NCBI GenBank assembly: GCA_903894755.1
Contig: CAITRH010000117.1
Location: 1 to 62,188 of the forward strand
Length of the DNA stretch: 62,188 nt
Direction of reading: 5' to 3'
DNA from: an uncultured delta proteobacterium
Lineage (GTDB): Bacteria; Myxococcota_A; Polyangia; Polyangiales; Polyangiaceae
Part shown: positions 28,620 to 52,746 of the stretch, one piece after another
Layout of the letters: the number at the start of each line of letters is the position of its first letter
How positions within the stretch are numbered: position 1 is the stretch's first letter
The notes under the pieces: model-generated
Told to the model about the DNA's origin: nothing
The model's database searches: none
What the model saw: only the letters and a program-made list of their open reading frames with translations
Position numbers and translations under genes: made by a program

Positions 28620-28670
28620 GAGCGCAGGTTCCGTCGGTCGGCTTTTTTTTGCAAGGGGTTTGTGGTGGCC

Positions 28671-28925
28671 GAGATCCCCTTCGCCGAGGCGACCGAGGCA
28701 CTTCGGGCGACCTAGAGTGACGTGCTCCAATCGGCGGAGGCACTGTAGGCGATCCAAAGTGACGGTTTCCAATCGGCGGAGCCACTTCGGGTGACCCAGA
28801 GTGACCTGTTCCAATCGGCGGAGCCACTTCGGGCCGCCCAGAGTGACCTATTCCAATCGGCGGAGGCACTTCGGGCGACCCAGAGTGACCTGTTCCAAGC
28901 AGCGGAGGCATTTCGGGCGACCCAC
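28671..28925. repeat. 42-bp tandem array A, five units plus partial
   Basis: Units start at 28699, 28741, 28783, 28825, 28867 and 28909 (exactly 42 bp apart). The core reads CACTTCGGGCGACC, then GAGTGACNTNTTCC, then AATCGGCGGAG. A conserved left flank, GAGATCCCCTTCGCCGA, precedes it. Since 42 is divisible by three, the array is open in several frames as a 14-residue repeat. It is the outermost left copy of four arrays and precedes a nuclease remnant. Confidence 0.95.
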
Positions 28926-28969: not shown

Positions 28970-29143
28970 GGGGGGCGCCGGGACGCTCGATGCCATCCTT
29001 GAGGTCGTCTTCGAGCTGCTCTTTGCGGACTCGAAGAACCGCGGCCTGGGACCTCGCTTGCGACGGCCGCGCACCGCTCGAAGGCTTAGGTAGAACGCGC
29101 CGTCGCTGTCCCCGCGCCGAAGACCTGTTGGCCGAAATCGGCT
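28970..29143 (+). pseudogene. Remnant of Rpn-type nuclease/transposase
   Basis: Sequence matching only the first ~20 codons (ILEVVFELLFADSKNR) and the last ~25 codons (ARLEG-WVER-AVSVPRAEDLLAE region) of the Rpn genes at 35.3 and 43.7 kb, with everything between deleted and frames broken. It is the copy attached to array A. Confidence 0.8.
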
Positions 29144-29149
29144 GCCCGA

Positions 29150-29296: not shown

Positions 29297-30880
29297 ATGA
29301 ACCTTGAGCCCGAGGTTGGGGACTACGTAACGCCAAGGCTGCAGCTCGTTCGGCGACTCGGCGTGGGGGGCATGGGTTCGGTGTGGGTCGCGCACAATCT
29401 GAGTCTGCATTCAGATGTCGTGATCAAGTTCATGGCGCCCCAGGTTGCGTCCGATCCCCTGCTACGCGCTCGCTTTGAGCGGGAGGCTGCCGCGGCCTCG
29501 GAGGTCCGCAGCCCTCATGTCATGCAGGTGTTCGACTACGGCCTGACCGCCACCGGGATCCCTTACATCAGCATGGAGCTGCTGGAAGGCGAGGATCTCG
29601 AGATGCGTCTTCGGATGGAACGCGTGATTCCGCTCGGTCACGTAGCGGCGGTGGTCCAGCAAGTGGCGCGGGCGCTTGGACGGGCCCACGAGCGGGGGAT
29701 TATCCATCGCGATATCAAACCTGCCAATATTTTCCTCTGCGAAACCGGCGAAGAGGACGCGTTCGTCAAGGTGCTCGATTTCGGCATTGCCAAGGTCCAG
29801 TGGGATCTCGACGGGGCTACGAAGACCGGGTTGGTGTTCGGGACCCCGTACTTCATGTCGCCAGAGCACACGATGGGGTCCAAGGCACTTGATTGCCGGT
29901 CGGACCTTTGGTCTCTGGGGGTCGTCGCCTACGTGGCGCTGACGGGGGTGTTGCCGTTCGACGGCGACACGGTGAGCGCGGTCTGCATGCGGATCTGTTC
30001 GGGCGCTTTCGCGCCGCCGTCAGCTGTCCAAGGGGGCATTTCGGCTGCGGTGGACTCCTGGTTCAACAGCGTACTGGCACGCGACCCAGCCAAGCGATTT
30101 GCGTCAGCGCGCGAGATGGCGGACGCGCTGGTATGCCTTGCTGGAGGCCCGATGGAAGCGCGGATCCCGTCCAGGATCTCCCTTTCGGCCGTGCGGGCTC
30201 CGGCGACCGTGTCGGGGCCGGATTCGGCATCGGCTTCAGCGGCAGCTCCCCTCTCAAACGCGCACCGGACTCCTCCTCCGAGCGCTCCGCGCCAATCGGT
30301 TCCAGCCCTTGCGAGCGCAGAGCTCCCTCCGTACAGTGTCCCGTCCACAGCACACTTCTATTCGTCCCAACCTCCCGCGCCGCAACGACTCGAAAGAAGC
30401 GTCAACGACCAAGCCGAGCGCGCGCAGAGGCTCCCGGCGGCCATGGACGATCGCAGCTCGCAACCGTACCGGACGAGCGTCTCAAGTGCTCCTCCTCCGC
30501 CTTCCGTGGCTCACGCCATGCCACCTCACTGGACAACGACGGCAGCCGGAGCGCTAGAACGGGCGCCCCGGTCGTCGTTGAAAGCCCAGCTCGCCATTTT
30601 CGTGGGGATGGGCGCGTTGATCACCCTTTCCGCGGGCGGCTTGCTCTTGTTTCTACGCGACCGAAACGACGTTTTCCGTGTTCAGCCACCTCCCACGGTG
30701 ACCATGTCGACTCTTGCGGCCCCGGTGTTGACGCTGCCCGCCGCCCCGTCCTTCGCCCCTTCCACACTGCCGACTCCGTCCTCGACGGCCCCGAAGACAA
30801 CGCCTTTGTCGCGACCGCAGCGACCGGCCCCCATTCCGCGCGCGGTGGCTCCCAAGGCATCCGGAGGAGACGTGTGGTGA
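29297..30880 (+). CDS. Membrane-anchored Ser/Thr protein kinase, cassette copy 1
   Basis: 527 residues from the ATG at 29297 (MNLEPEVGDYVTPRLQL). Kinase domain about 14-285 with GVGGMGSVW, Lys in VVIKFMA, HRDIKPANIF, DFGIAK and GTPYFMSPEH, complete for catalysis. A Pro/Ser-rich linker, one membrane helix (about 430-453) and a short Pro/Thr-rich outer tail follow. It is closely similar throughout to the kinase at 36466-37950; this copy has an extra linker segment (VNDQAERAQRLPAAMDDR). It overlaps the following TPR gene by 7 bp, so the two are translationally coupled. Confidence 0.93.
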   Translation: MNLEPEVGDYVTPRLQLVRRLGVGGMGSVWVAHNLSLHSDVVIKFMAPQVASDPLLRARFEREAAAASEVRSPHVMQVFDYGLTATGIPYISMELLEGEDLEMRLRMERVIPLGHVAAVVQQVARALGRAHERGIIHRDIKPANIFLCETGEEDAFVKVLDFGIAKVQWDLDGATKTGLVFGTPYFMSPEHTMGSKALDCRSDLWSLGVVAYVALTGVLPFDGDTVSAVCMRICSGAFAPPSAVQGGISAAVDSWFNSVLARDPAKRFASAREMADALVCLAGGPMEARIPSRISLSAVRAPATVSGPDSASASAAAPLSNAHRTPPPSAPRQSVPALASAELPPYSVPSTAHFYSSQPPAPQRLERSVNDQAERAQRLPAAMDDRSSQPYRTSVSSAPPPPSVAHAMPPHWTTTAAGALERAPRSSLKAQLAIFVGMGALITLSAGGLLLFLRDRNDVFRVQPPPTVTMSTLAAPVLTLPAAPSFAPSTLPTPSSTAPKTTPLSRPQRPAPIPRAVAPKASGGDVW

Positions 30881-31899
30881 AAAAGGCTTCCCGCATCGCC
30901 TTGCTGCTCGGGCACCTTGCGCTAGCGGCGCCTGCAGCCGCAGTGCTATCTCCCCAATCTTCCCTGGCCCAACAGCGGACACCGGACGAGCAACGGGCGA
31001 GCACTTTGCTCGTGGAAGGTCAGGAGCTCCGTCAGCAGGGGCTACACAAAGAGGCGCTCGAGAAGTTTCGCGAGGCCTATCGAATCTTACAGACGCCGAT
31101 CCTAGGTTTTGCCCTTGCGCAGGGGCAGGTCGCTCTTGGACAGCTTCTCGAAGCCCAGCAAACGCTCAGGGCGGTGCACTATCTGCCCGAGTCCTTGAAA
31201 GAGACGCTAAAGTCGCAGCGGGTCCGGGTCGACGCTGCGCTCCTTCTGGTCGACGTGACCGGGCGGATTCCTGTTCTTCAGGTTTCTGTCAAAGGGCTTC
31301 CAGCGGGACAGGACGCGGTGCTGCAGGTGGCGGGCAAAGCTTTGACACTGGCCGCTGCGGATCAAGGGATATCGCTCAATCCTGGGAGCTACGAGGTCGT
31401 TGCGAAGGCGAGCGGCCGACCGGAACAACATCAGCAGATCCAACTGAATGAAGGGGCCCGTATCCGCATCGACATGGTGTTTCCACTGGATATCCCGGTG
31501 GCGCCCGTTGTCGCAATTCCTGCGGCGACGACGACGGCGCCCATTGTGGTGACGCTGCCGCGTCCTTTGCCGCGTGCTACCAACGAAGGCCCCGGAGCGT
31601 TGCCTTGGATTGTTGGGGGCGTTGGTGCAGCAACGCTCGCAGTCGCCGCGGGGCTCGAGTTGGCACGTTCCAGCAAGAACGACATCATCAGCCAACACTG
31701 CAACACCACGGCCTGCGACCAGGAGGGGATCGACGCGACGAAGTCGGCGAAGTCGCTGCAAACCTTTGGTGCAGTGGCGTGGGTCGTGGGGGGCGTCGGT
31801 GTTGCGACCGGCACTGTGCTCTACTTTACGCTCGGAGGCCGAAAGCACACCACCGTTGCGTTACGTCCAGGAGGCTTTGCGTTGACTACGCAATGGTAG
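30874..31899 (+). CDS. Exported TPR/PEGA-like membrane protein, copy 1
   Basis: 341 residues, GTG start inside the kinase 3' end; two paralogous genes have ATG at the same spot, which fixes the start. A signal peptide (RIALLLGHLALAAPAAAVL) is followed by a TPR-like helical pair (ASTLLVEGQELRQQGLHKEA, LEKFREAYRILQTP), a PEGA-like beta domain (IPVLQVSVKGLPAGQDAVLQ to SYEVVAKASG), a Pro/Thr linker, and two C-terminal membrane helices (PWIVGGVGAATLAVAAGLEL; AVAWVVGGVGVATGTVLYF). The kinase coupling suggests it is a partner or substrate at the envelope. Near-duplicate at 42333-43370. Confidence 0.82.
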   Translation: MVKKASRIALLLGHLALAAPAAAVLSPQSSLAQQRTPDEQRASTLLVEGQELRQQGLHKEALEKFREAYRILQTPILGFALAQGQVALGQLLEAQQTLRAVHYLPESLKETLKSQRVRVDAALLLVDVTGRIPVLQVSVKGLPAGQDAVLQVAGKALTLAAADQGISLNPGSYEVVAKASGRPEQHQQIQLNEGARIRIDMVFPLDIPVAPVVAIPAATTTAPIVVTLPRPLPRATNEGPGALPWIVGGVGAATLAVAAGLELARSSKNDIISQHCNTTACDQEGIDATKSAKSLQTFGAVAWVVGGVGVATGTVLYFTLGGRKHTTVALRPGGFALTTQW

Positions 31900-31903
31900 A
31901 CCG

Positions 31904-32884
31904 ATGCAATTTACCCCTCAGAGTTCTGCGTGGTTGTCGCTGATTGCGGTCTCTTGCAGCCTGGTGAGTCCTCGGGATTACGACCCGTACTACCTATCCG
32001 AGTCCACCACGCACTGCCCCGCCTATTGCAGCAACCATGGCACCTGCGACCTGTCGACGTTCGTATGTTCCTGCACTGCGGGATACGCACCGCCCGACTG
32101 CAGCACGTGCGACACTGGGTATTCGGGGTACCCAAGTTGCGAATCCGATTGCACGGGCGAGGGCTGCACCAACCAGCTCCCGCTGAAGTACACCGAGACA
32201 TTCGATTCAAACGCCAACGGTTGGTTCACGGGAACAAGGTCAAGCTCGGATGGGGGCTCTGTGACTTTCTCGATAGAAGGTGGCGGTTACGTATGGACGT
32301 TGAACTCCATTGGCTGGTCGATGCCTTGGCCGAGGGAGGTCCCCCCGGATGTCTACGTGAGCGTGGACGTGACCGTTGCCAGCGGTACTCCGCCGTATGC
32401 ACTGTCTGCACGATCAGCCAACGGGGACGGCTATTTCTTTCTGGTGTTTTCTTCGGGCTCCACCTGGTCCATCGAAAGGTATGCGAATGTAGATGCGGGA
32501 AGCCCCTGGTCTGTGCTGAAAAAGGGATCAGCGCCCCTTCTGCGCCAAGGACAAACCAACAACATTGCTTTCGCTACTCTGGGAGCGCGCCTCAGGTTTT
32601 TTCTCAACGGGACTATCATCGGCCAGGTGACCGACACGACCTACGGGAGCGGTCACGTCGGGCTCTTGGCGGAAGCCACGGATCAGACCACAGCGCAGGT
32701 CACCTTCGACAACTTCAAGGTGTACTATGCCGAGTCCTTCGCAGGTTGCCCAAACAATTGCAGCGGCCATGGAACGTGCGACACGTCGACGGGGGTCTGT
32801 TCCTGCACCGCGGGATACGCACAGCCGGCGTGCGGTACGTGTGACACTGGAGACGCGGGGTATCCGAATTGTAGCTTACCGTAA
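31904..32884 (+). CDS. EGF-like lipoprotein with jelly-roll domain
   Basis: 326 residues; signal peptide with lipobox AVSC, then SLVSPRDYDPYYLSES, a segment shared with the FGE-like lipoprotein of the second cassette. Two Cys-rich EGF-like modules (CSNHGTCDLSTFVCSCTAGY and CSGHGTCDTSTGVCSCTAGY) flank a beta-sandwich domain of about 180 residues (YTETFDSNANGW, LNGTIIGQVTDTTYGSGHVG, TFDNFKVYY), resembling the laminin-G/DUF1080 fold. Predicted surface lipoprotein that may bind glycans or proteins. It starts 4 bp after the TPR gene stop, same operon. Confidence 0.8.
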   Translation: MQFTPQSSAWLSLIAVSCSLVSPRDYDPYYLSESTTHCPAYCSNHGTCDLSTFVCSCTAGYAPPDCSTCDTGYSGYPSCESDCTGEGCTNQLPLKYTETFDSNANGWFTGTRSSSDGGSVTFSIEGGGYVWTLNSIGWSMPWPREVPPDVYVSVDVTVASGTPPYALSARSANGDGYFFLVFSSGSTWSIERYANVDAGSPWSVLKKGSAPLLRQGQTNNIAFATLGARLRFFLNGTIIGQVTDTTYGSGHVGLLAEATDQTTAQVTFDNFKVYYAESFAGCPNNCSGHGTCDTSTGVCSCTAGYAQPACGTCDTGDAGYPNCSLP

Positions 32885-33603: not shown

Positions 33604-34935
33604 ATGGTAAAAACAACTCCGATGAGCCGCGTTGTTGCCGGCTTGGCTCACCTCGCGTGGGCAATTCCAGCAGCCGTCTCGTTGCCATTGGTAGCGTCTG
33701 CCCAGGCGCCGCCCCAGGACGAACCGAAGGCCATTCGACTGATGCTCGAGGGCCAAGAGCTTCGGGACAAGGGCAACCATGCCGGAGCACTGGAAAAGTT
33801 CCGCCAGGCCTACTCGGCATTGCCGAACCCGGTCATTGGTTTGGCACTGGCACAAGAGCTGGTCACACTTGGAAAGCTCCTCGAGGCCAAAGAGACCCTG
33901 ATGAACGCATGCCAACTGCCTGAATCCGACAAGGAGACGGCGAAATCCAAGAAAGCGCGTGTGGACACGGCTTTGCTCTTGGTCGACGTGGCTACCCGAA
34001 TTCCTGTCCTTCAAGTGTCCGTACGTGGGGTTCCGGCGGGACAAGATATGACGCTGGAGGTGGGAGGGAAAACGGTATCGCAGGCGGCGGGCGACCAAGG
34101 AATTCCCCTCGACCCGGGCAGCTACGAGGTCGTTGCGCGGACCGAGACGCGGAGCGAGCAGCGAAAGGAAGTCCAGCTCAGAGAACGGGATCGGCTGCGG
34201 ATCGAGCTAACGTTTTCCAACCCGTCCATGGACCGTGTTGCCATCGCGCCCATTGCTCCGACCGCTTCCACCTCCGTTTCCTCGACCCCGTCCGCTGCCC
34301 CAACCGCTACCAGCGAGCCAACCGAGCCAACCGAGCCAGGAGCTCCTAAGCAGTCCCGGGGCCGACTGGAATTTGGTGTTCGATCCGGATATGGCCTTCC
34401 GCTTGGGGACGTTGACCAAGGCGAAGCCATGAAGGACTTTTGGACCGGCATGGTACCGATCTGGTTGGATGCAGGCTATGAGTTCAACCGGAGCCTCTAT
34501 GTGGGAGCTTACTACCACTATGGCGCCGCTTTCGTTTCGGACAGCCAGTGCGCAAATCTAAGCTGTTCTGGCCGCGTCATTCGATTTGGGGCGATGGTTC
34601 GGTATACTGCTGCCAAGTTAGGTGAACTCTTGCCTTGGGTTGGGGTGGGATTTGGATACGAATCGACGTCGCTCACCGTGACCGCAAACGGCGCCGAAGC
34701 GACCGTGGGGGTAAGCGGCTTGGAATTCCTAAACCTGCAAACTGGTTTTGACTTCGAATTAACGTCGAGCATCAAAATGGGTCCATTCGTAAGCTACTCG
34801 ATGGGTCGTTTCGGGACTTTGAGCGTCAAGAGCCCATCGACCGGAGGCGCGGAGCAGAGTCAGGATATCCCGAACAAGGCGACCCATTCATGGTTCGTCT
34901 TCGGCCTCCGCGGGGCTTACCACATCGACCTCTAA
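33604..34935 (+). CDS. TPR/PEGA-like protein with C-terminal outer-membrane barrel
   Basis: 443 residues. The N-terminal 200 residues parallel the TPR/PEGA-like paralogues (RLMLEGQELRDKGNHAGALE, RIPVLQVSVRGVPAGQD, GSYEVVARTETRSE) after a signal peptide (PAAVSLPLVASAQA). Instead of the two membrane helices, the C-terminal half is a barrel-like region after an EPTEPTEPG linker: LEFGVRSGYGLPLGD, LYVGAYYHYGAAFVS, LPWVGVGFGYEST, VFGLRGAYHIDL with a terminal Leu. So the head domain is joined to a different membrane anchor. The TAA stop lies in a dispersed repeat terminus. Confidence 0.8.
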   Translation: MVKTTPMSRVVAGLAHLAWAIPAAVSLPLVASAQAPPQDEPKAIRLMLEGQELRDKGNHAGALEKFRQAYSALPNPVIGLALAQELVTLGKLLEAKETLMNACQLPESDKETAKSKKARVDTALLLVDVATRIPVLQVSVRGVPAGQDMTLEVGGKTVSQAAGDQGIPLDPGSYEVVARTETRSEQRKEVQLRERDRLRIELTFSNPSMDRVAIAPIAPTASTSVSSTPSAAPTATSEPTEPTEPGAPKQSRGRLEFGVRSGYGLPLGDVDQGEAMKDFWTGMVPIWLDAGYEFNRSLYVGAYYHYGAAFVSDSQCANLSCSGRVIRFGAMVRYTAAKLGELLPWVGVGFGYESTSLTVTANGAEATVGVSGLEFLNLQTGFDFELTSSIKMGPFVSYSMGRFGTLSVKSPSTGGAEQSQDIPNKATHSWFVFGLRGAYHIDL

Positions 34936-34975: not shown

Positions 34976-34989
34976 CCAACCTAAGGACC

Positions 34990-35242
34990 TCCCCCTCGCC
35001 GATGCGACCGAGGCACTCTTGGGGGCCCGAAGCCTCCTCGCCGAGCCGACGAAGGCACTTCGGGTGACCCAAAGTGACGCATACCAATCGGCGGAGCCAC
35101 TTCGGGCGACCTAGAGCTACGTGTTCCAATCGGCGGAGGCACTTCGGGCGACCGAGAGCTACGTGTTCCAATCGGCGGAGGCACTTCGGGCGACCGAGAG
35201 CGACGTATTCCAATCGGCGGAGCCACTTCGGGCGACCGAGGT
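34990..35242. repeat. 42-bp tandem array B, four units plus partial
   Basis: Units start at 35056, 35098, 35140, 35182 and 35224. The left flank is CTCGCCGATGCGACCGAGGC and CCTCCTCGCCGAGCCGACGA; the last partial unit runs into ACCGAGGTCGACATGGACC and CTGCGTCATCGCCATCTGC, which also follow array C. The downstream Rpn gene starts 45 bp later. Confidence 0.95.
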
Positions 35243-35287
35243 CGACATGGACCGACCTGCGTCATCGCCATCTGCTACGCTCACCGC

Positions 35288-36313
35288 GTGCGCCGGACAC
35301 TTGATCCCACCCTAGATGTCGTCTTCAAGCTGCTCTTTGCGGACTCGAAGAACCGCGACCTTCTGATCGCTCTGCTCACCGCGGTGCTGCGTCCCAAGTC
35401 GCCGATCCGCTCGGTGACCGTGCTAAACCCAGAGGTCTCGAAGGAGGCGGTGACGGACAAAAGCATCGTGCTGGATATCCTTGTGCTCTGCGAGAACGGC
35501 ACCCAAGCGGACGTCGAGATGCAGGCCGATCGACGTCCTGCGTGGCGGTCCCGTTGCATGTTCTACTGGGCCAAGGTGTATTCGTCGCAGCTGACCCCCG
35601 GTCTCCCCTACACAACACTGAAGCCTGTGAAGGTGGTTGCTTTCTTGGGCTACCAGGAGTTCGAGGGCGACTGGTTGCACTCCGTGTTCCAGGTTCAGGA
35701 CATGCGAACGGGCAAGGTTTTCAGCGACGCGTTGGAGCTGCACACCATTGAGCTCCCGAAGCTTTCCGTCATGGGCGAAGCCGAGCGACAGGAGAACCCG
35801 GCGCTCACCTTGTGGACTCGGTTCTTTGCTGCGACCACGGACGAAGAATTGGAACAATTGGCCAAGGAGGATCCTATGATGCAAGTAGCGCATACGCGCT
35901 TGGTGGACCTGTCGACGCACGAAGAAGCATGGCAGCTGGCCAGGGAGCGGGAGATGTCGCAAGCGACCTACCGGATCGAAATAGGGGCTGCCATCGAGCT
36001 CGGCGAAAAGCGTGGCGAAGAGCGTGGCATCGAGCTCGGCGAAAAGCGTGGTATCGAGGTCGGCGAAAAGCGAGGCATCGAGGTTGGCGAAAAGCGAGGT
36101 ATCGAGGTCGGCGAAAAGCGAGGCATCGAGGTCGGCGAGCGCAACGCCTTGGCCGCGGCAGTTCTCCATGTGCTGCACGCCCGAGCCATCCCGGTGACCG
36201 ACGAAATCCGCGCCGCGATCCTCGCTTGCGGCGACCGCGCACGGCTTGAAGGGTGGGTGCAACGCGCCGTCTCCGTCCCCTGTGCCGAAGACCTGCTGGC
36301 CGAAGGCGCCTGA
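35288..36313 (+). CDS. Rpn-family PD-(D/E)XK nuclease / putative transposase (intact copy)
   Basis: 341 residues, GTG start. The N-terminus (LDPTLDVVFKLLFADSKNRD) and the core D63 in IVLDILVLCENG with E77-M-Q79 in ADVEMQADRR are the PD-(D/E)XK signature of Rpn/PDDEXK_2 proteins, followed by MFYWAKVYSSQL. Characterised Rpn proteins are DNases that stimulate RecA-independent recombination; they are not classic transposases. After residue ~225 an octapeptide GEKRGIEV/L is repeated about five times (24-bp DNA unit), as a probable helical linker. It sits directly behind the 42-bp array. Confidence 0.88.
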   Translation: MRRTLDPTLDVVFKLLFADSKNRDLLIALLTAVLRPKSPIRSVTVLNPEVSKEAVTDKSIVLDILVLCENGTQADVEMQADRRPAWRSRCMFYWAKVYSSQLTPGLPYTTLKPVKVVAFLGYQEFEGDWLHSVFQVQDMRTGKVFSDALELHTIELPKLSVMGEAERQENPALTLWTRFFAATTDEELEQLAKEDPMMQVAHTRLVDLSTHEEAWQLAREREMSQATYRIEIGAAIELGEKRGEERGIELGEKRGIEVGEKRGIEVGEKRGIEVGEKRGIEVGERNALAAAVLHVLHARAIPVTDEIRAAILACGDRARLEGWVQRAVSVPCAEDLLAEGA

Positions 36314-36465: not shown

Positions 36466-37950
36466 ATGAATCTCGAACCCGAGGTCGGGGACTACGTAAC
36501 ACCAAGGTTGCAGCTGGTTCGTCGACTCGGTGCGGGGGGCATGGGTTCGGTGTGGATCGCGCGCAACCTGGGCTTACGTTCAGATGTCGTGATCAAGTTC
36601 ATGGCTCCCCAGGTCGCGTTGGATCCCCTGCTACGCGCCCGCTTCGAGCGTGAGGCTGCAGCGGCTTCGGAAGTCCGCAGCCCCCATGTCGTGCAGGTGT
36701 TCGACTACGGCGTGACCGCCAACGCAATCCCCTATATCAGCATGGAGCTCCTCGAAGGCGAGGATCTCGAGACGCGCCTTCGGACGGAACGCGTGATTCC
36801 GCTCGGGCACGTGGCGGCCATAGTCCAGCAAGCGGCGCGGGCGCTCGGACGTGCCCACGAGCGGGGAATTATCCATCGCGACATCAAACCCGCAAACATT
36901 TTCCTCTGCGAAACCGGCGAAGAGGACGCGTTCGTCAAGGTGCTCGATTTCGGCATTGCCAAGTTCCAATGGGGGCTCGACGGTACGACGAAGACCGGGG
37001 TGGTGTTCGGGACTCCGTACTTCATGTCGCCAGAGCACACGATGGGGTCCAAGGCGCTTGATGGCCGATCGGACCTTTGGTCCTTGGGGGTGGTCGCCTA
37101 CGTTGCGCTCACGGGCGTGCTGCCGTTCGACGGTGACACGGTGATCGCGGTCTGCATGCGCATCTGCTCGGGCACTTTCGTGCCGCCGTCAGCTGTCCAA
37201 GGGGGCATTTCGACTGCGGTGGACTCCTGGTTCAACAGCGTACTGGCACGCGACCCAGCCAAGCGATTTGCCACCGCGCGCGAGATGGCCGACGCGCTCG
37301 TTGGTATTGCGGGGGGGCCTATGGGGGCACGGATCCCCTCGAGGATCTCCCTTTCGAGCATGAGAGCTCCCGCGACCGTGTTGGGGCCGGAATCGACGGC
37401 CCCCGCAGCATCGCGTCCAACTCCGAGCGCTCCACGGCAATCCGGTCCAGCCATTGCGAGCGTGGAGCTCCCTCCGTACAGTGTCCCGTCCACGGCACAC
37501 TTCTATTCGTCCCAACCTCCTGCGCCGCAACGAGTTGAAAAAAGCCTCTCAAGTGCTCCTCCTCCTCCTCCTCCCTTGGCTCACACCATGCCACCTCACT
37601 GGACAACAACGGCTGCCGGAGCCCTAGAACGGGCGCCCCGGCCATCGTTGAAAGCCCAGCTCGCCATGTTCGCAGGGATAGGCGCGTTGCTCACCCTTTC
37701 CGCGGGCAGCTTGCTCTTGTTTCTGCGCGACCGAAACGACGTTTCCAGTGTTCAGCCACCTCCCACGGTGACCCTATCGACCCTTGCGCCGCCAGTGATG
37801 ACGCTGCCCGCTGCCTCGGTCTTCGCCTCTTCCTCACTGTCAACTCCGTCCTCCACGGCCCCGACGGCAACGCCTTCGTCGCGACCGCAGCGACCGGCGC
37901 CCATTCCGCGCGCGGCTACTCCCAACGCATCCACAGGAGACGTATGGTGA
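36466..37950 (+). CDS. Membrane-anchored Ser/Thr protein kinase, cassette copy 2
   Basis: 494 residues, nearly the same protein as the copy at 29297: GAGGMGSVW, VVIKFMA, HRDIKPANIF, DFGIAK, GTPYFMSPEH, one membrane helix (about 398-421) and a Pro/Thr-rich tail ending NASTGDVW. Differences cluster in the linker, which is shorter here. The last 7 bp overlap the start of the FGE-like lipoprotein gene, exactly where copy 1 overlaps the TPR gene, so the kinase is conserved while its coupled partner is swapped. Confidence 0.93.
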   Translation: MNLEPEVGDYVTPRLQLVRRLGAGGMGSVWIARNLGLRSDVVIKFMAPQVALDPLLRARFEREAAAASEVRSPHVVQVFDYGVTANAIPYISMELLEGEDLETRLRTERVIPLGHVAAIVQQAARALGRAHERGIIHRDIKPANIFLCETGEEDAFVKVLDFGIAKFQWGLDGTTKTGVVFGTPYFMSPEHTMGSKALDGRSDLWSLGVVAYVALTGVLPFDGDTVIAVCMRICSGTFVPPSAVQGGISTAVDSWFNSVLARDPAKRFATAREMADALVGIAGGPMGARIPSRISLSSMRAPATVLGPESTAPAASRPTPSAPRQSGPAIASVELPPYSVPSTAHFYSSQPPAPQRVEKSLSSAPPPPPPLAHTMPPHWTTTAAGALERAPRPSLKAQLAMFAGIGALLTLSAGSLLLFLRDRNDVSSVQPPPTVTLSTLAPPVMTLPAASVFASSSLSTPSSTAPTATPSSRPQRPAPIPRAATPNASTGDVW

Positions 37951-39041
37951 AGAAGCGTTCCCGCATTGCCGTGGTGCTCACACACTTTGCCCTGGCCGCA
38001 GCGCTGCTGACTGCGGCATCTTGCAGCCTGTTGAGTCCTCGGGATTACGACCAGTACCGTCTGTCCGAGTCCTCCGCACTCGACGGGGGCAGGGACAGCG
38101 AAGGATGTCCTGGCGCCACGGAGCAGCCATGCGGCAACTGCGGCACGCAAGTGCGTACGTGCGACGGTGCGGGCTGGTCTGCGTGGGCAAGTTGTTCCGG
38201 CGAGGGAACCTGCGCTCCAAACGGTGTCGTCCCCTGCGCAAGCAGCAGCACCCCATCGTGGAGCCAAGTTTGTTCGAGTTCATGCAACTGGCAGGCGTGT
38301 AACCCTGATCAGACTGCGCTCGCGCGAGTGACGCTTGCCGACGGCTCGGGAACCTTTGCCATCGAACAGCACGAAGTGACTCGAAAGCAGTACCAACAGT
38401 TTCTAGAAGCACCTGCCGCGGACGTCGCCCTTGCGGTCGGAACCCCACCTCCCGGCTGCAGCACCGTTTCGAATTTCCCCGATGCGACCTGTTTGGCCGA
38501 CCCATCGGTGTGTGCCTCGAATTGCGACCGTCATCCGCAGGTATGTGTCCACTGGTGCGGCGCCTACGCTTACTGCAAATGGCTCGGTCGCAGGCTCTGT
38601 GGAAAGATCGGGGGTGGTTCCACCGATGCGACCCAGTCCAGGTCGCCGCAGATCAGCCAATGGACCGCGGCTTGTGTCGGCACGCAAGGTTCCGCAGACG
38701 TGTTTCCTTACGGCGCGATCCCGGTCCCAAGGCGATGCAACGACCTGTCAAGCGGCATCAGCACCGTCGAGGTCGCTCAGAAGCGCGATTGCCACGGCGG
38801 GTCCGTCCCCTTCGACAGCATTTACGACCTGTCGGGGAACGTGGCCGAGTGGGGCGATTCATGTGTCGTGGTGGATCCTGCTAACCAGACCGTTCGCTGC
38901 CAGACGCGGGGCGGCTCCTTCAACGACGACCCCGATTCTTCGGAAACAGGCCCATCGCTTCGGTGCGCCGGCTCGATCTTGGACTGGACGGACATGTTTT
39001 CTTGCCTTCCTTATGTTGGATTCCGATGCTGCATGGACTGA
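37944..39041 (+). CDS. Formylglycine-generating-enzyme-like lipoprotein with TSP1-like module
   Basis: 365 residues. MVKKRSRIAVVLTHFALAAA matches the TPR protein start, then the lipobox ASC and SLLSPRDYDQYRLSES match the EGF lipoprotein, so the N-terminus is itself a chimera. A Cys-rich module (CGNCGTQVRTCDGAGWSAWA) resembles thrombospondin type 1. The rest is a SUMF1/FGE-like domain: FAIEQHEVTRKQYQQF, YAYCKWLGRRLCGK, DLSGNVAEWGDSC, TRGGSFNDD, YVGFRCC. True FGE activity is uncertain, as many secreted homologues are non-catalytic or act as lectin-like proteins. Coupled to the kinase by a 7-bp overlap. Confidence 0.82.
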   Translation: MVKKRSRIAVVLTHFALAAALLTAASCSLLSPRDYDQYRLSESSALDGGRDSEGCPGATEQPCGNCGTQVRTCDGAGWSAWASCSGEGTCAPNGVVPCASSSTPSWSQVCSSSCNWQACNPDQTALARVTLADGSGTFAIEQHEVTRKQYQQFLEAPAADVALAVGTPPPGCSTVSNFPDATCLADPSVCASNCDRHPQVCVHWCGAYAYCKWLGRRLCGKIGGGSTDATQSRSPQISQWTAACVGTQGSADVFPYGAIPVPRRCNDLSSGISTVEVAQKRDCHGGSVPFDSIYDLSGNVAEWGDSCVVVDPANQTVRCQTRGGSFNDDPDSSETGPSLRCAGSILDWTDMFSCLPYVGFRCCMD

Positions 39042-39066
39042 ATTTGTCCAGACAGGAGACGCTATC

Positions 39067-42000
39067 ATGAGTACCCTGGGATGGTCCCTTCGAACGAGTT
39101 CCTTCTTATCGCTTGCGGGCATAACGACGCTTGCAGCTGGCTGCTCCAGCCCGTCGAGGACCGCTACCACGTCGGACCCTGAAGCCGACGCAGGCGCAGG
39201 CGCCGACAGCTCCATGGACACGACCGTTGACGACGACATTGCGATCCCGAGCCCATCGGGCATGGGAGCCGCTGCGGGGTGTGGCACGGTGTTAGGCGCC
39301 TACCGAACCGTCGCGGTGTTTAGCAATGGTGCGGACACCCGCTCCAACCTTTGCACGCAGCAAGGCCAATGCGAGGCGGGCTACAAGAGCGCCTATGGGG
39401 CCTCGCTCACCTGCGGAACGCAAAGCGGCTTGGGGCAATGTGGCACAGGACGCGACATGCGTCTGCGCACGGACTTCGGACTTGCGTTCCAGTGTGTCGA
39501 GTTTGCTCGCCGCTTTTTAGGCCAACGCTACCACCGGGGCTCGTCGCTGGGCCTTCCGTGCCTAGGCAATGGCAACGCCATCGACCTTTGGAGGACCCCT
39601 TCGGCCTATTTCCGCGAGAAGTACCGAAACAGCGAGTCCGCCACTCCACCTCGTCCCGACGACATCGTGGTGTTCTACGACGCCGCCAGCGGCGCCTTCG
39701 ACCAAATCGGCCACGTTGCCGTGGTGCGCAAGGTCACTGCGGACCGTGTGTTTGTCGCGCAGCAAAATGCAACAGGACGGGCGCTCGACGCGAACTATCC
39801 CCTGAGCATCTCGATTGGATCCGGGGGCAAAGTGAGCTTGGCCGACGCTGGCGGGGCGCTCAACGGCATGGCGGTGGTAGGATGGATTCGCAATCCTGAC
39901 AACGACCCCTTCAACTGCGCTGCGGACGCTACATGTCCCGACGACTACTCGTGTGCTCAAGGGAAGTGCGTCCTTTGCAGCGCCCCCGAGAGCGACGCCA
40001 ACATGTGCACCAGGCTGGGCACGACGTGCGGAACGCTCAATGCGACGGACCTGTGCGGAACCGCGAGGACGGTGAACTGCGGCATCTGCGATTCCTGCCC
40101 AAGCAACTGCAGCAGCCACGGGACATGCAACGCGGGGACCTGCACGTGTACCACGGGCTTCGCCGGAACTGCGTGCAATACGTGCGATACGGGCTACGCG
40201 GGGTATCCCAATTGCCAGCCATCGACGTGCAGCGGAGCAAGCTCCGAGGCGTGTGGAAATTGCGGAACGCGAAGCCGCACATGCAACGCCGGCGTCTGGA
40301 CCGCGTGGTCCGCATGCACCGGGGAAGGGGTCTGCGCCCCTTCGGACACCCAACCTTGTGGAGCGGGGGGAATCCAGACCTGCGGCAACACTTGCCAGTG
40401 GGGGACGTGCAGCGGCGGCATCTGCGCCGGAGGCTGCGACGACGGGCTTGCATGCACCACGGACACCTGCGACGCGGGCACGTGCAAACACGCCCTCGCC
40501 AACGGTCGCTGCGTCATCGCCAACGCCTGCTATTACGACGGGGACAGCAACCCCGCGGACCCGTGCCAGGGGTGCATCACCCCCACCGCGACCACATCGT
40601 GGTCCGCGCGACCGGAGGGGGCGACCTGCGATCTCTCCAAGTCGTGCCAGGGCGGTCAGTGCAAACCGTGCGGAGCGCTGGGACAGGTGTGCTGCACGGC
40701 GACGGCCTCCAAGTGTGCTATCGGTGCCACGTGCAACGGATCAAACCTCTGTGAGGCGGACCAGGCGGTGAGCATTTCCATGGGTGGGTCCAATGCATGC
40801 GCCCTCTTCAGATCGGGACGCGTGCGATGCTGGGGGAACACCGGGGCGATGTTGGGGACGGGACAGACTTCGGGGAGCTCCGCGCCTGCAGCCCCCGTAT
40901 CGGGGCTCAACGATGCCACGAAGGTTGTCGTTGGATATTATGGGGCCTGTGCGATCCGGGCAACGGGAAACATTGTCTGCTGGGGGTCCGTTGCCGGGAA
41001 CAACAGCAGCGCCGTACCGGTGGTAGTCCCAGGACTGAGCACTGCCACGGACGTCGCTGTCGGCTCCTCCCACGTGTGCGCTCGGGTGGCGGGAGGCCAG
41101 GTGATGTGTTGGGGAACCAGTAACAGCAGTGGCCAACTTGGCGATGGTACGAGCATTGCGCATTCCGCCCCTGCAGCTGTGCAGAATCTGACCGATGCAG
41201 TCAGCGTGGCGTCCGTCGGCGACACCACCTGTGCGGTTGTATTGGGAGGAGCCGTTCGCTGCTGGGGAAGCAACTTTTTTGGGGCTCTCGGCAACAACAC
41301 CAGCAGCATGGCATCTAGCAACACACCCGTGGCGGTTTCGTGGTTGTCCGATGCGATCGCCGTGATTCCTGCTAATGCTGGCTACAGTACGTTCGTCGCC
41401 TTGCGCCAGTTCGGCTACCTCGTTGAATGGGGTGGTAACCGGTCCGCACCGGTTCCCGTGGCTGGTCTTGCACAGGCGGTCGGGGTAGGCGCCGGCTCCC
41501 GTCACAGATGCGCAATCGTTACCGGCGGGAGCGTGCAATGCGTGGGAACGAACACGAATGGTATCCTCGGCGATGGCACCTTTGTATCCCCTGCCACAGG
41601 CCAAGCCACCAGTTCGAGGCTACTTCACGGCGGCCTGGTCGCGAACGCGGTTTCGATTGCAGCCAACAGCCATAGTACCTGCATCGTGCTAAGCAATGGC
41701 GCTGTGTACTGCACGGGTGAGGGGTCCCTCATGCTCGGCGATGGCCAGCAATCATCCGCAAGCCTCCGAAATCTTTTCACTCCTGCGGTGGGCATCCTCC
41801 CCGTCGGAAGCGAGGACGGCCAGTGTGCCGATGGTGTGGACAACGACGGCAATGGCAAGACGGACCTTGACGACCCCGCCTGCGCGACGGACCTCGGATC
41901 CGCTGTCGGGTCCAACGTGGGGGGCTTCTTGTGGAACGGCAGCCAAGGGAACTACAACCGCGGCTCGTGTATGAGCAGCGGCAGCTACGGAGGTCCCGAC

Positions 42001-42264
42001 GCGGTGTTTACTTGGACTGCACCCGCAGGTGGAACGTACACCATCGACACCGCCGGCAGCGGGATGGACACAGTGCTCTACGCTCTCAAGGGGAACCTTG
42101 CGACCGGCGTCGAGCTGGGTTGCAACGACAATGGATCGACCCTATCGAACGGCGCTTCTTCCATCGACGTGCAGGTCGTGACTGGGGACAAGTTGGCCAT
42201 CGTCGTCGACAGTAAGAGCTTCCAGCAGGGGAAGTCGGCCGCGCTCAACATCACGCAGAAGTAG
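39067..42264 (+). CDS. Mosaic surface lipoprotein: CHAP, EGF, TSP1, RCC1 repeats
   Basis: 1,065 residues; lipobox LAAGC. About residues 60-280: CHAP-type amidase region with Cys in FQCVEFARRFLG and His in DQIGHVAVVRKV. About 330-400: EGF-like (CSSHGTCNAGTCTCTTGFAG) and TSP1-like (CGNCGTRSRTCNAGVWTAWS). About 450-560: further Cys-rich modules. About 570-900: RCC1-type blades (CALFRSGRVRCWG, CARVAGGQVMCWG, CAVVLGGAVRCWG). Near 915: calcium-loop-like DGVDNDGNGKTDLDD. The C-terminal 110 residues are a PPC-like beta sandwich. Likely a surface adhesin with peptidoglycan hydrolase potential. It follows the FGE-like gene by 25 bp. Confidence 0.85.
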   Translation: MSTLGWSLRTSSFLSLAGITTLAAGCSSPSRTATTSDPEADAGAGADSSMDTTVDDDIAIPSPSGMGAAAGCGTVLGAYRTVAVFSNGADTRSNLCTQQGQCEAGYKSAYGASLTCGTQSGLGQCGTGRDMRLRTDFGLAFQCVEFARRFLGQRYHRGSSLGLPCLGNGNAIDLWRTPSAYFREKYRNSESATPPRPDDIVVFYDAASGAFDQIGHVAVVRKVTADRVFVAQQNATGRALDANYPLSISIGSGGKVSLADAGGALNGMAVVGWIRNPDNDPFNCAADATCPDDYSCAQGKCVLCSAPESDANMCTRLGTTCGTLNATDLCGTARTVNCGICDSCPSNCSSHGTCNAGTCTCTTGFAGTACNTCDTGYAGYPNCQPSTCSGASSEACGNCGTRSRTCNAGVWTAWSACTGEGVCAPSDTQPCGAGGIQTCGNTCQWGTCSGGICAGGCDDGLACTTDTCDAGTCKHALANGRCVIANACYYDGDSNPADPCQGCITPTATTSWSARPEGATCDLSKSCQGGQCKPCGALGQVCCTATASKCAIGATCNGSNLCEADQAVSISMGGSNACALFRSGRVRCWGNTGAMLGTGQTSGSSAPAAPVSGLNDATKVVVGYYGACAIRATGNIVCWGSVAGNNSSAVPVVVPGLSTATDVAVGSSHVCARVAGGQVMCWGTSNSSGQLGDGTSIAHSAPAAVQNLTDAVSVASVGDTTCAVVLGGAVRCWGSNFFGALGNNTSSMASSNTPVAVSWLSDAIAVIPANAGYSTFVALRQFGYLVEWGGNRSAPVPVAGLAQAVGVGAGSRHRCAIVTGGSVQCVGTNTNGILGDGTFVSPATGQATSSRLLHGGLVANAVSIAANSHSTCIVLSNGAVYCTGEGSLMLGDGQQSSASLRNLFTPAVGILPVGSEDGQCADGVDNDGNGKTDLDDPACATDLGSAVGSNVGGFLWNGSQGNYNRGSCMSSGSYGGPDAVFTWTAPAGGTYTIDTAGSGMDTVLYALKGNLATGVELGCNDNGSTLSNGASSIDVQVVTGDKLAIVVDSKSFQQGKSAALNITQK

Positions 42265-42267
42265 GCT

Positions 42268-42332
42268 CAGGCAGCGACCGGCGTCCATTGCGTGTGCGGT
42301 CGCTCCCAAGGCATCCACTCCACAGGAGACGT
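42268..42332 (+). pseudogene. Duplicated 3' end of a cassette Ser/Thr kinase gene
   Basis: CAGCGACCGGCGTCCATTGC and then CCCAAGGCATCCACTCCACA before GGAGACGTATGG match the last ~20 codons of both kinase genes (30825-30877 and 37895-37947). No kinase body is present. The fragment travelled with the TPR gene that follows, showing that the TPR gene was once joined to a kinase as in copy 1. Confidence 0.8.
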
Positions 42333-43370
42333 ATGGTGAACAAGCTTTCCCGCATTGCCTTGCTGCTCTCACACGTCGCGCTTGCAGCGCCTCCTGCCGC
42401 AGCGCTACTTCCCCAGCCTTCCCTGGCCCAAACAAGGACACCGGACGAGCAACGGGCAAGCAAGTTGCTCGTGGAAGGCCAAGAGCTCCGTCAGAAAGGG
42501 CAACACACCGAGGCGCTCGAAAAGTTTCGCGAGGCCTACCGAATCTTGCAGTCGCCGATCCTCGGTCTTGCCCTTGCGCAGGGGGAGCTTTCCGTTGGAC
42601 AGCTTCTCGAGGCCCAACAATCGCTCCTTGCGGTGAGCCGCCTGCCGGAGTCTCCAAAAGAAAAGCCCAAGTCGAAACGGGCGCGGGTCGACGCTGCGCT
42701 TCTTCTGGTGGACCTGACCGGCCGGATTCCTGTCCTTCAGGTTTCTGTCAAAGGGCTTCCAGTCGGACAGGACGTCGTGCTGCGTGTGGCGGGCAACACG
42801 CTGACGCTGCCCGCTGCGGATCACGGCGTATCTCTCAATCCTGGGAGCTACGAGGTCGTTGCCAAGGCGAGCGGTCGACCGGAACTGCATCGGCAGGTCC
42901 AACTGGACGAAGGGGCCCGTATCCGCGTCGAGATGGTGTTTCCACCGGATGTCCACGTGGCCCCCATGCCAGCGACGCTGCCATCTGTTGCATCGGTGAC
43001 GGCGACGGTCCCCATTGTGGTGACGCTGCCGCCTCCTGTACCGCCTGCTGCCAACGAAGGTCCCGGAGCCTTGCCATGGATCGTGGGGGGCGTTGGTGCA
43101 GCTGCGCTTGCAGGGGCCGTGGGGCTGGAGTTGGCACGTTCCAGCAAGAACGACGTCATCAACCAACACTGCAACGCCACGGGGTGCGACCAAGACGGAA
43201 TCGACGCGGCAAGGTCGGCCAAGTCGCTGCAGACCTACGGCGCTGTGGCGTGGATCGTGGGGGGCGTCGGGGTTGCGACTGGGACCGTGCTGTACTTTAC
43301 GCTCGGAGGCCAAAAGAACACCACCGTTGCGTTGCGTCCAGGCGGCTTTGCGTGGACCACGCATTGGTAG
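42333..43370 (+). CDS. Exported TPR/PEGA-like membrane protein, copy 2
   Basis: 345 residues, near-duplicate of the protein at 30874: signal peptide (RIALLLSHVALAAPPAAALL), TPR-like pair (SKLLVEGQELRQKGQHTEAL), PEGA-like domain (IPVLQVSVKGLPVGQDVVLR), Pro-rich linker, two membrane helices (PWIVGGVGAAALAGAVGLEL; AVAWIVGGVGVATGTVLYF). The ATG matches the GTG of copy 1. The leader carries the kinase-tail fragment, and the RBS is GGAG 4 bp before the ATG. Confidence 0.82.
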   Translation: MVNKLSRIALLLSHVALAAPPAAALLPQPSLAQTRTPDEQRASKLLVEGQELRQKGQHTEALEKFREAYRILQSPILGLALAQGELSVGQLLEAQQSLLAVSRLPESPKEKPKSKRARVDAALLLVDLTGRIPVLQVSVKGLPVGQDVVLRVAGNTLTLPAADHGVSLNPGSYEVVAKASGRPELHRQVQLDEGARIRVEMVFPPDVHVAPMPATLPSVASVTATVPIVVTLPPPVPPAANEGPGALPWIVGGVGAAALAGAVGLELARSSKNDVINQHCNATGCDQDGIDAARSAKSLQTYGAVAWIVGGVGVATGTVLYFTLGGQKNTTVALRPGGFAWTTHW

Positions 43371-43426
43371 CACCTGGGAACCTTAGTCGTCCCACCACGA
43401 AGTCCGGGGGCCTCTTGCTGACACGG

Positions 43427-43458
43427 AATCTTGCAGCCTGGTGAGTCCTCGGGATTTC
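43427..43458 (+). pseudogene. Fragment of the EGF/FGE lipoprotein leader
   Basis: TCTTGCAGCCTGGTGAGTCC followed by TCGGGATT is identical or nearly so to the lipobox region of the EGF lipoprotein (31949) and of the FGE-like lipoprotein (38019). It encodes SCSLVSPRD only and then runs into the flank of array C. Confidence 0.75.
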
Positions 43459-43462
43459 GGCG

Positions 43463-43695
43463 TCGAGGCTTTCGGGGACCCGAAGTCTCCTCGCCGAGCC
43501 GACGATGGCACTTCGGGTGACCCAAAGTGACGCATACCAATCGGCGGAGCCACTTCGGGCGACCGAGAGTGACGTGTTCCAATCGGCGGAACCACTTTGG
43601 GCGGCCCAGAGTGACGCGTTCCAATCGGCGGAGGCACTTCGGGCGACCGAGAGTGACGCATACCAATCGGCGGAGGCACTTCAGGCGACCGAGGT
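43463..43695. repeat. 42-bp tandem array C, four units plus partial
   Basis: Units start at 43509, 43551, 43593, 43635 and 43677. The left flank CTCCTCGCCGAGCCGACGA and the right junction ACCGAGGTCGACATGGACC are as in array B. The next gene is the catalytically deleted Rpn copy. Confidence 0.95.
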
Positions 43696-43740
43696 CGACA
43701 TGGACCGACCTGCGTCATCGCCATCTGCTACGCTCACCGC

Positions 43741-44616
43741 GTGCGCCGGACACTTGATCCCACCCTTGACATCGTCTTCAAGCTGCTCTTTGCGGACTCG
43801 AAGAACCGCGACCTTCTGATCGCTCTGCTCACCGCGGTGCTGCGTCCCAAGTCGCCGATCCGCTCGGTGACCGTGCTCAATCCGGAGGTCTCGAAGGAGG
43901 CGGTGACGGACAAGAGGTTGCACTCGGTGTTCCAGGTTCAGGATGCGCGAACGGGCAAGGTTTTCAGCGACGCGTTGGAGCTACACACCATCGAGCTCCC
44001 GAAGCTTTCCGTCATGGGCGAAGCCGAGCGACAGGAGAACCCGGCGCTCACCTTATGGACTCGGTTCTTTGCGGCGACGACGGACGAAGAATTGGAACAA
44101 TTGGCCAAGGAGGATCCTATGATGCAAGTAGCGCATACGCGCTTGGTGGACCTGTCGACACGCGAAGAAGCATGGCAGCTCGCGAGGGAGCGGGAGATGT
44201 CGCAAGCGACCTACCGGATCGAAATGGGGGCTGCTATCGAGCTCGGCGAAAAGCGTGGCGAAGAGCGTGGCATCGAGCTCGGCGAAAAGCGTGGTATCGA
44301 GGTCGGCGAAAAGCGAGGCATCGAGGTTGGCGAAAAGCGAGGTATCGAGCTTGGCGAAAAGCGTGGTATCGAGCTTGGCGAAAAGCGAGGCATCGAGCTT
44401 GGCGAAAAGCGTGGCGAAGAGCGAGGAATCGAGCTCGGCGAGCGCAACGCCTTGGCTACGGCAGTTCTCCGCGTACTGCACGCCCGAGCCATCCCGGTGA
44501 CCGACGAAACCCGCACTGCGATCCTCGCTTGCTACGACCGCCCCCGCCTCGAAGGCTGGGTAGAACGCGCCGTTTCTGTCCCCCGCGCCGAAGACCTGTT
44601 GGCCGAAGCCGGCTGA
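43741..44616 (+). CDS. Rpn-family protein with catalytic core deleted
   Basis: 291 residues. Identical in plan to the Rpn protein at 35288 and almost identical in sequence, except that about 70 residues after EAVTDK are missing; the frame resumes at LHSVFQVQD. The loss removes D63, E77 and Q79, so nuclease activity is not expected. The GEKRGIEL/V octapeptide tract is longer here (about seven to eight units against five). The reading frame is open, so it may still be made and might act as a regulator or be dying. Confidence 0.85.
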   Translation: MRRTLDPTLDIVFKLLFADSKNRDLLIALLTAVLRPKSPIRSVTVLNPEVSKEAVTDKRLHSVFQVQDARTGKVFSDALELHTIELPKLSVMGEAERQENPALTLWTRFFAATTDEELEQLAKEDPMMQVAHTRLVDLSTREEAWQLAREREMSQATYRIEMGAAIELGEKRGEERGIELGEKRGIEVGEKRGIEVGEKRGIELGEKRGIELGEKRGIELGEKRGEERGIELGERNALATAVLRVLHARAIPVTDETRTAILACYDRPRLEGWVERAVSVPRAEDLLAEAG

Positions 44617-45011: not shown

Positions 45012-45330
45012 GGGGAGCCTCCGTGAGCTGCGCGGCCAGTTTGCTTGCGCTGGACGTATCGGGCCCCTCGAGCAGTCTCACGAGCTTTCGCTGCTGGTCG
45101 AGGCGGTCGTCGAAGCACTTCACCTGGCGCTGGGTGTCGTCTTGGGTGATGAGCTTACGCTTGTAGCAGTCGTTGCAGACCGCGAGGCGTAGGCGCCCCC
45201 AGTCTTCGCTGATGGCGTCCATTTCGTTGACGATGGCCTGGTGCTCGCCCGCCTCGATCCCTCCGCCGTCTCCGGCAAATTGGGTCCACTCCGATGAGAA
45301 GCGAGAGGTCTTGCTGTCCGAGATCCCCTT
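44998..45330 (-). pseudogene. 5'-truncated gene joined to array D
   Basis: Coding sequence from about SKTSRFSSEWTQFAGDGGG to SKLAAQLTEAPHACK, with VCNDCYKRKLITQDDTQRQV in the middle; helical with two Cys-x-x-Cys residues. Its 5' end is lost at the left flank of array D, and the frame continues upstream through the array as 14-residue repeats (LGRPKWLRR...) to 45531. The stop overlaps the start of the lipoprotein pseudogene, so they were an operon. Confidence 0.65.
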
Positions 45331-45530
45331 CGCCGATGCGACCGAGGCTCTTGGGAGGCCCGAAGTCTCCTCGCCGAGGCGACGAAGCCACTTCGGGCGA
45401 CCGAGATTGACGTGTTCCAATCGGCGGAGCCACTTCGGGCGACCGAGAGTGACGTATTCCAATCGGCGGAGGCGCTTCGGGTGACCGAGGTTGACGTATT
45501 CCAATCGGCGGAGCCACTTCGAGCGACCCA
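45320..45530. repeat. 42-bp tandem array D, three units plus partial
   Basis: Units start at 45389, 45431, 45473 and 45515. The left flank GAGATCCCCTTCGCCGATGC matches array A; no Rpn gene follows, and the array ends 75 bp before proC. This is the right boundary of the mosaic region. Confidence 0.95.
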
Positions 45531-45605
45531 CCCACTTCGGCTGCGAGTCGGTCGGGGCGGCGAAGGGCCGAGACGTCGAGCACCTTGTCGTGCTATCGAC
45601 GCCGC

Positions 45606-52382: not shown

Positions 52383-52403
52383 GGCGACGACGCTACACTA
52401 GCG

Positions 52404-52746
52404 ACCCCATTTTGAGAACCGCAGGTCCGATCCACGGTCCGAACCGCCACGGCGACACCCGCGACCCAGGGTTGCCCACCCTGGGCTGTTTTGATTCGCC
52501 CCTTCGGGGCTGCCAATCAACGCGTGGGGTCGTTCCATCGAAGGGAAAAACTGGGGTTCCCCCGCTGCAACGGCGCACGCGCACGCGCATCAGATGATGA
52601 CGACATGGCTTGATTGGCAGCCCCGAAGGGGCGAATCAGAACAGCCCAGGGTGGGCAACCCTGGGTCGCGGGTGTCGCTGTGGCGGGTCGGACCGTGGAT
52701 CGGACCGTGGGTCGGACCTGCGGTTATCAAAGTAGGTTTGGTTTAG
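52404..52746. repeat. Large imperfect inverted repeat with 89-bp loop
   Basis: Left arm 52404-52520 and right arm 52610-52746 are near-perfect inverted copies: CCGCAGGTCCGA, CGACACCCGCGACCCAGGG, CCCACCCTGGGC, TTCGCCCCTTCGGGGCTGCC and CCAATCAA pair with their complements. The right arm has an extra ~15 bp (repeated GGACCGTGGRTC). Loop 52521-52609 has no motif. The right end TTTGGTTTAG is 1 bp from the start codon of the next gene. Confidence 0.85.

Follow-up and report, generated by a model that had tools for sequence, protein, structure and literature searches.

Several described systems resemble parts of the locus analysed here. Modular SitA lipoproteins of Myxococcus combine a conserved N-terminal part with different C-terminal domains (PMC8546572), and the gliding lipoprotein GldK/PorK belongs to the FGE-sulfatase family PF03781. 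Recombination-promoting nucleases of the Rpn family (TIGR01784) include the E. coli endonuclease RpnA, which has little sequence specificity. When E. coli Rpn proteins are overexpressed, recombination independent of RecA goes up (PMC5350276); a role of Rpn proteins in phage defence, as toxin-antitoxin systems, has also been described (PMC10327210). Among the 38 relatives that we compared, all from outside the genus, and in other genera of the same family, complete operons of a kinase, a TPR protein and an FGE protein on one strand occur in L137, L140 and L141, and the same order with wider spacing occurs in L142 and L143.

The window is the complete contig C117 (CAITRH010000117.1; 62,188 bp) of a 6.78-Mb draft genome of 778 contigs, and the genes of the three units described below lie on its forward strand. 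Set against the kinase-TPR-FGE operons of L137, L140 and L141, unit A of the window is a kinase-TPR-EGF lipoprotein arrangement, whereas unit B is a kinase-FGE pair in which the TPR body is missing and the TPR leader is fused to the lipoprotein. In our preferred reading, to which we assign a probability of roughly 70%, the window carries a duplicated, partly eroded operon in which a deletion of about 1 kb created the fusion of unit B and a kinase deletion created unit C.

Layout of the units

Unit A starts with a 42-bp tandem repeat array (28663-28925) and a remnant of an Rpn-family nuclease gene of which only the 5' and 3' ends are left (29001-29148). The Ser/Thr kinase A (PF00069; 29234-30880) overlaps with its stop codon the GTG start of its partner TPR1, an exported TPR protein (30874-31899), and holds the TPR1 ribosome-binding site in its 3' end. 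An EGF/LamG-like lipoprotein with a SPRDY leader (31904-32884; 77-bp SPRDY segment at 31939-32015) completes the unit. As for the type of kinase in these units, the score against the PASTA-type PknB model NF033483 is 249.9 bits, below the cut-off of 450 bits, with the match restricted to the kinase domain. Between units A and B, a third TPR gene (33604-34935) encodes an N-terminal part 50% identical to TPR2, and an outer-membrane beta-barrel domain replaces the usual C terminus.

Like kinase A with its Rpn remnant, kinase B is located behind an Rpn-family gene that is itself preceded by a 42-bp array. In unit B, the array (34980-35280) is followed by an intact Rpn gene (35288-36313; PF12784), which scores 105.6 bits against the curated TIGR01784 cut-off of 52.1, and by Ser/Thr kinase B (36466-37950), whose domain is 89% identical to that of kinase A. 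The next gene, with an ATG start (37944-39041), is a fusion of a TPR leader, a SPRDY lipoprotein leader and an FGE-like domain, and precedes a gene for a CHAP/EGF/RCC1 surface protein (39067-42264).

Unit C contains a 62-bp relic of a kinase 3' end without its kinase (42271-42332), TPR2 with an ATG start (42333-43370), a remnant of a SPRDY lipoprotein gene 3' of TPR2 (43416-43459), a 42-bp array (about 43432/43464-43732) and a further Rpn copy (43741-44616). From the latter, about 210 bp of the nuclease domain are deleted, so that most of the domain is missing while the frame is intact, and its 30.3 bits are below the TIGR01784 cut-off. This copy keeps C-terminal 24-bp repeats (GIELGEKR) and has more of them than the intact copy does. 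Divergence between the Rpn copies of units B and C (Ks 0.13-0.19) is younger than that between kinases A and B. This counts against the preferred reading and implies at least two duplications or a degree of homogenisation. Together with a further array at 45312-45570, the 42-bp arrays (the third spanning 43432-43732 at its widest) are mostly positioned before Rpn genes, and they are similar to 42-bp arrays on at least ten other contigs. Contigs C753, C35 and C180 terminate in Rpn copies.

In addition, a MITE-like repeat with the ends CTAAACCAAACCCATCTTGAAAACCGCAGGTCCGAACCG has at least five matches in the window (near 112, 12241, 34934, 49690 and 52398-52744) and, under a stricter pattern, 50 genome-wide; copies often sit close to the ends of contigs, and some form inverted pairs spaced about 100-350 bp. 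We considered this repeat, which is present beside the dispersed fragments described below, as their carrier and rejected the idea as unproven, as the repeat is dense and no clear pair of ends brackets the fragments.

Shared start regions and the test for exchange

The end of the kinase gene and the start of the TPR-protein gene are present at three loci (A, 30817-30929; B, 37887-37999; C, 42271-42388), and the sequence-only reading had correctly recognised both the start regions common to the genes at 30874, 37944 and 42333 and the kinase 3' end lacking a kinase ahead of TPR2, for which it had given about 65 bp. Identity of tail plus leader is 81-82% between A and C and 80.5-84% between B and C (80.5%, gaps included, in an alignment of 118 columns; E 1e-24), and A and B are 86% identical over 457 bp that include this region. 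Over 57 aligned bases the relic, which carries a single 5-bp insertion, shares 86% identity with each of the two kinase tails, and its first 19 bases occur in the window at the three loci only, compared with an average of 0.02 matches in shuffled sequences. Kinase stop and following start overlap as GTGGTGA or ATGGTGA (RTGGTGA), and the motif AGGAG sits inside the kinase 3' end. The relic includes this AGGAG and is thus likely also the translation start region of TPR2, a role that would simply explain its persistence.

From these shared segments the same reading had concluded that partner genes were repeatedly exchanged behind a constant kinase by recombination in short leader and tail sequences. 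The chimeric FGE gene, the 89% identical kinases with different neighbours and the single SPRDY leader with different ectodomains all speak for such exchange. Alignment combined with breakpoint detection, the check proposed with that claim, gave uniform divergence: identities are 85-89% for kinases A and B, 84% for the TPR genes of A and C, 86-88% for the tail and 75-82% for the leader, and tail and leader have diverged about as much as the surrounding genes. Max-chi-square scans of eight triplets detected no breakpoint (p 0.06-0.95) over segments of about 113-190 bp, which limits their power, and the informative sites of the four-copy alignment (0, 2 and 0 for the three splits) are free of conflict, again with low power over short segments; as the shared segments are short, small exchanges could escape both tests. 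Heterogeneity between A and B (p 0.006 in 200-bp windows) tracks a fast-changing linker at about 37270-37500 and the conserved kinase core, not the shared segment, whereas heterogeneity between A and C is absent at 200 bp (p 0.75) and present to some degree at 100 bp (p 0.013), with the lowest value in the TPR body (42576-42675). Even divergence without a breakpoint indicates common ancestry by the very criterion attached to the exchange claim. Furthermore, the genome contains only two intact SPRDY genes, and other genera have FGE behind kinase-TPR. Repeated exchange is therefore improbable, and the shared start regions are best explained as relics of common ancestry rather than as parts of a gene-swapping system. 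The facts behind the claim all stand, closely related kinases with different neighbours among them, but FGE is probably not a swapped-in partner, since TPR-FGE and kinase-TPR-FGE orders recur in other genera.

The same segments allow a second arrangement of events, in which homologous recombination inserted a tail-leader-SPRDY-FGE-CHAP block at the kinase/TPR boundary of a single unit formed by kinase B and TPR2, leaving tail and leader as direct repeats. Such repeats do flank the FGE-CHAP block (37887-37999 and 42271-42388), the Ks values of kinase domains A/B (0.40) and of TPR1/TPR2 (0.37) are similar, as expected if kinase B and TPR2 were one unit, and a fragment of the tail-leader-SPRDY type exists on contig C724. 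Against this, the repeats on either side share 84% identity, little more than A shares with B or C, and the conserved kinase-TPR-FGE order already places FGE behind a TPR gene. The same 84% also weighs against the preferred reading, since it shows that B and C are no recent pair. We regard insertion as unlikely, though it is the most credible of the alternatives considered here. Ka/Ks is low in both cases (0.11 for the kinase domain, 0.34 for TPR), indicating that both units are under selection.

The fusion gene and its ancestry

As proposed from the sequence, the FGE-like protein has a TPR-type leader, after which comes the SPRDY segment known from the EGF lipoprotein, the two SPRDY copies (38006-38080, or to 38084, and 31939-32015) being 84% identical over 77 bp (E 2e-16). 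Unit B shares its junction at about 37997-38010 (GCCGCAGCGCTGCTGACTGCGG) with the fragment on C724. To the left the junction follows the TPR leader of C (GCCGCAGCGCTACT), to the right the lipoprotein leader of A (CGCTGATTGCGG), and a few of its bases occur in both leaders. An assembly artefact is unlikely, since C724 carries an independent copy of the fused tail-leader-SPRDY sequence with the same join at 93% identity over 276 bp. An open frame on the other strand terminates within this fragment (L047 1-446), so that the fragment coincides with the 3' end of that frame.

The predicted fusion product starts with MVKKRSRIAVVLTHFALAAALLTAASCSLLSPRDYD, read by eye as a Sec-type leader with a lipobox-like Cys (LTAASC). 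Its FGE-like domain scores 64.7 bits against PF03781 (gathering cut-off 23.3) and reads RGGSFNDDPDSS after RGGS, without the Cys pair at this position that we take to be the FGE active site. A PDB sequence search with the domain returned no match at E 0.001. GldK, in which an FGE-like domain is likewise part of a predicted lipoprotein, is matched only weakly (26 bits, cut-off 350).

Under the preferred reading of duplication and deletion, the ancestral unit would have consisted of 42-bp repeats, an Rpn nuclease gene, a kinase, an exported TPR protein and a SPRDY lipoprotein. The SPRDY remnants that follow TPR sequence at 43416-43459 and on contig C359 argue for this ancestral kinase-TPR-SPRDY lipoprotein order. 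In copy B, about 1 kb (in A coordinates) would have been lost by deletion at a short match within GCGCTGCTGA, so that the TPR body disappeared and the TPR start came to lie in frame with the lipoprotein signal region, while in copy C deletion would have spared only that part of the kinase from which TPR2 is started. In duplicated operons, a single deletion each may suffice to join leader and SPRDY segment and to leave a kinase tail without its kinase. As the fusion still overlaps the kinase stop and retains the Sec-type leader with its lipobox-like Cys, the kinase is now directly followed by an FGE-like lipoprotein, which would be expressed from the TPR start, translationally coupled to the kinase and secreted.

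Gene order in relatives bears on the origin of the FGE gene. A kinase on the same strand lies directly upstream of TPR2-type genes in 11 of the 19 best loci of relatives, and contig C319 of the same genome encodes a kinase followed by a TPR protein. TPR followed by FGE within about 1.2 kb on one strand was identified at eight loci in six genomes (L113, L134, L137-L140 and two in L141), compared with 0.32 expected by chance from match counts, whereas a kinase directly before FGE was found at none of the 25 FGE loci of relatives (flanks of at most 1.5 kb). In this genome, contig C497 encodes, in order, a gene with a TPR-like C terminus, an FGE lipoprotein (53% amino acid identity) and a CHAP/EGF gene (58%), so that a gene of the same kind follows FGE there as in unit B. 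Inheritance is therefore the simplest account of an FGE gene placed after kinase and TPR. Rather than a newly recruited partner, the FGE protein is probably the third gene handed down with the operon; the missing TPR body would be the unusual feature of unit B, which appears to be a decayed member of the kinase-TPR-FGE operons. A scan of GTDB genome contigs with TPR2 confirmed no relative. On contig C635 (L135 2402-5499), an FGE gene and its CHAP/EGF neighbour point in opposite directions, suggesting that the FGE-CHAP pair was locally inverted.

Past the SPRDY segment, the proteins of A and B are unrelated, with EGF and LamG-like domains in A and the FGE domain in B, and here one real swap or replacement is likely. 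The EGF/LamG-like ectodomain of A has no other copy in the genome and marginal matches in two of the 38 relatives, while the FGE of B is seen in related operons, so that replacement in A is the simpler reading and A most likely acquired the EGF/LamG type. With only two intact SPRDY genes, this would be one event and no system. The SPRDY leader is convincing in this genome only; a search of the 38 relatives gave no convincing match (best E about 0.01). In contrast to SitA, both intact genes carry surface-type domains: Pfam assigned EGF/LamG-like and FGE domains behind the leader, and neither a nuclease nor another toxin was recognised.

Dispersed remnants and a possible contribution of Rpn nucleases

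Further remnants are found on other contigs; like the SPRDY remnant of unit C, the C724 copy and the Rpn genes and 42-bp arrays beside the units, they had escaped the sequence-only reading. On C359, 138 bp of TPR sequence are followed by a 12-bp piece that belongs about 135 bp farther along the TPR gene, and then by the SPRDY remnant and repeats. C584 contains 107 bp of TPR sequence and, behind it, collinear Rpn pieces between which about 19 bp (13 exact) are left. The short pieces, 12 bp on C359 and 13 exact bases within about 19 bp on C584, are rarely matched by shuffled sequences. Residual pieces retained in order are what stepwise deletion of longer copies would leave behind, unlike transfer of short segments.

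Rpn genes or remnants and 42-bp arrays accompany the units, and adjoining Rpn nucleases could have promoted illegitimate recombination independent of RecA and thereby the duplications, the deletions and the dispersal of fragments, which would add a cause to the deletion model without replacing it. The Rpn pieces on C584, the junctions that share a few bases only and the properties of the E. coli enzymes fit this idea; against it, the link is one of adjacency, similar junctions arise without Rpn, and the proteins have also been assigned the anti-phage role cited above. We consider an Rpn contribution doubtful, if slightly less so than repeated partner exchange. Least probable of all, and at best speculative, is an extension in which Rpn-flanked units generate kinase/lipoprotein combinations, with the fixed kinase tail and SPRDY leader as a landing pad for surface domains (EGF/LamG, FGE and others since lost) placed by Rpn-promoted illegitimate recombination.

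Rearrangement by ordinary evolution is the best explanation of the locus. Judged from domains and gene order, the membrane kinase, exported TPR protein and surface lipoprotein would work together as a signalling unit of the envelope; in unit B, translation of the lipoprotein would begin at the TPR start, immediately after the kinase. Leaders common to paralogous neighbours can thus stem from duplication and deletion, not from active gene swapping, a caution for the interpretation of similar loci. A single contig would document how a three-gene signalling operon may become a direct kinase-lipoprotein pair through loss of the middle gene, with the overlapping start and the export signal kept.
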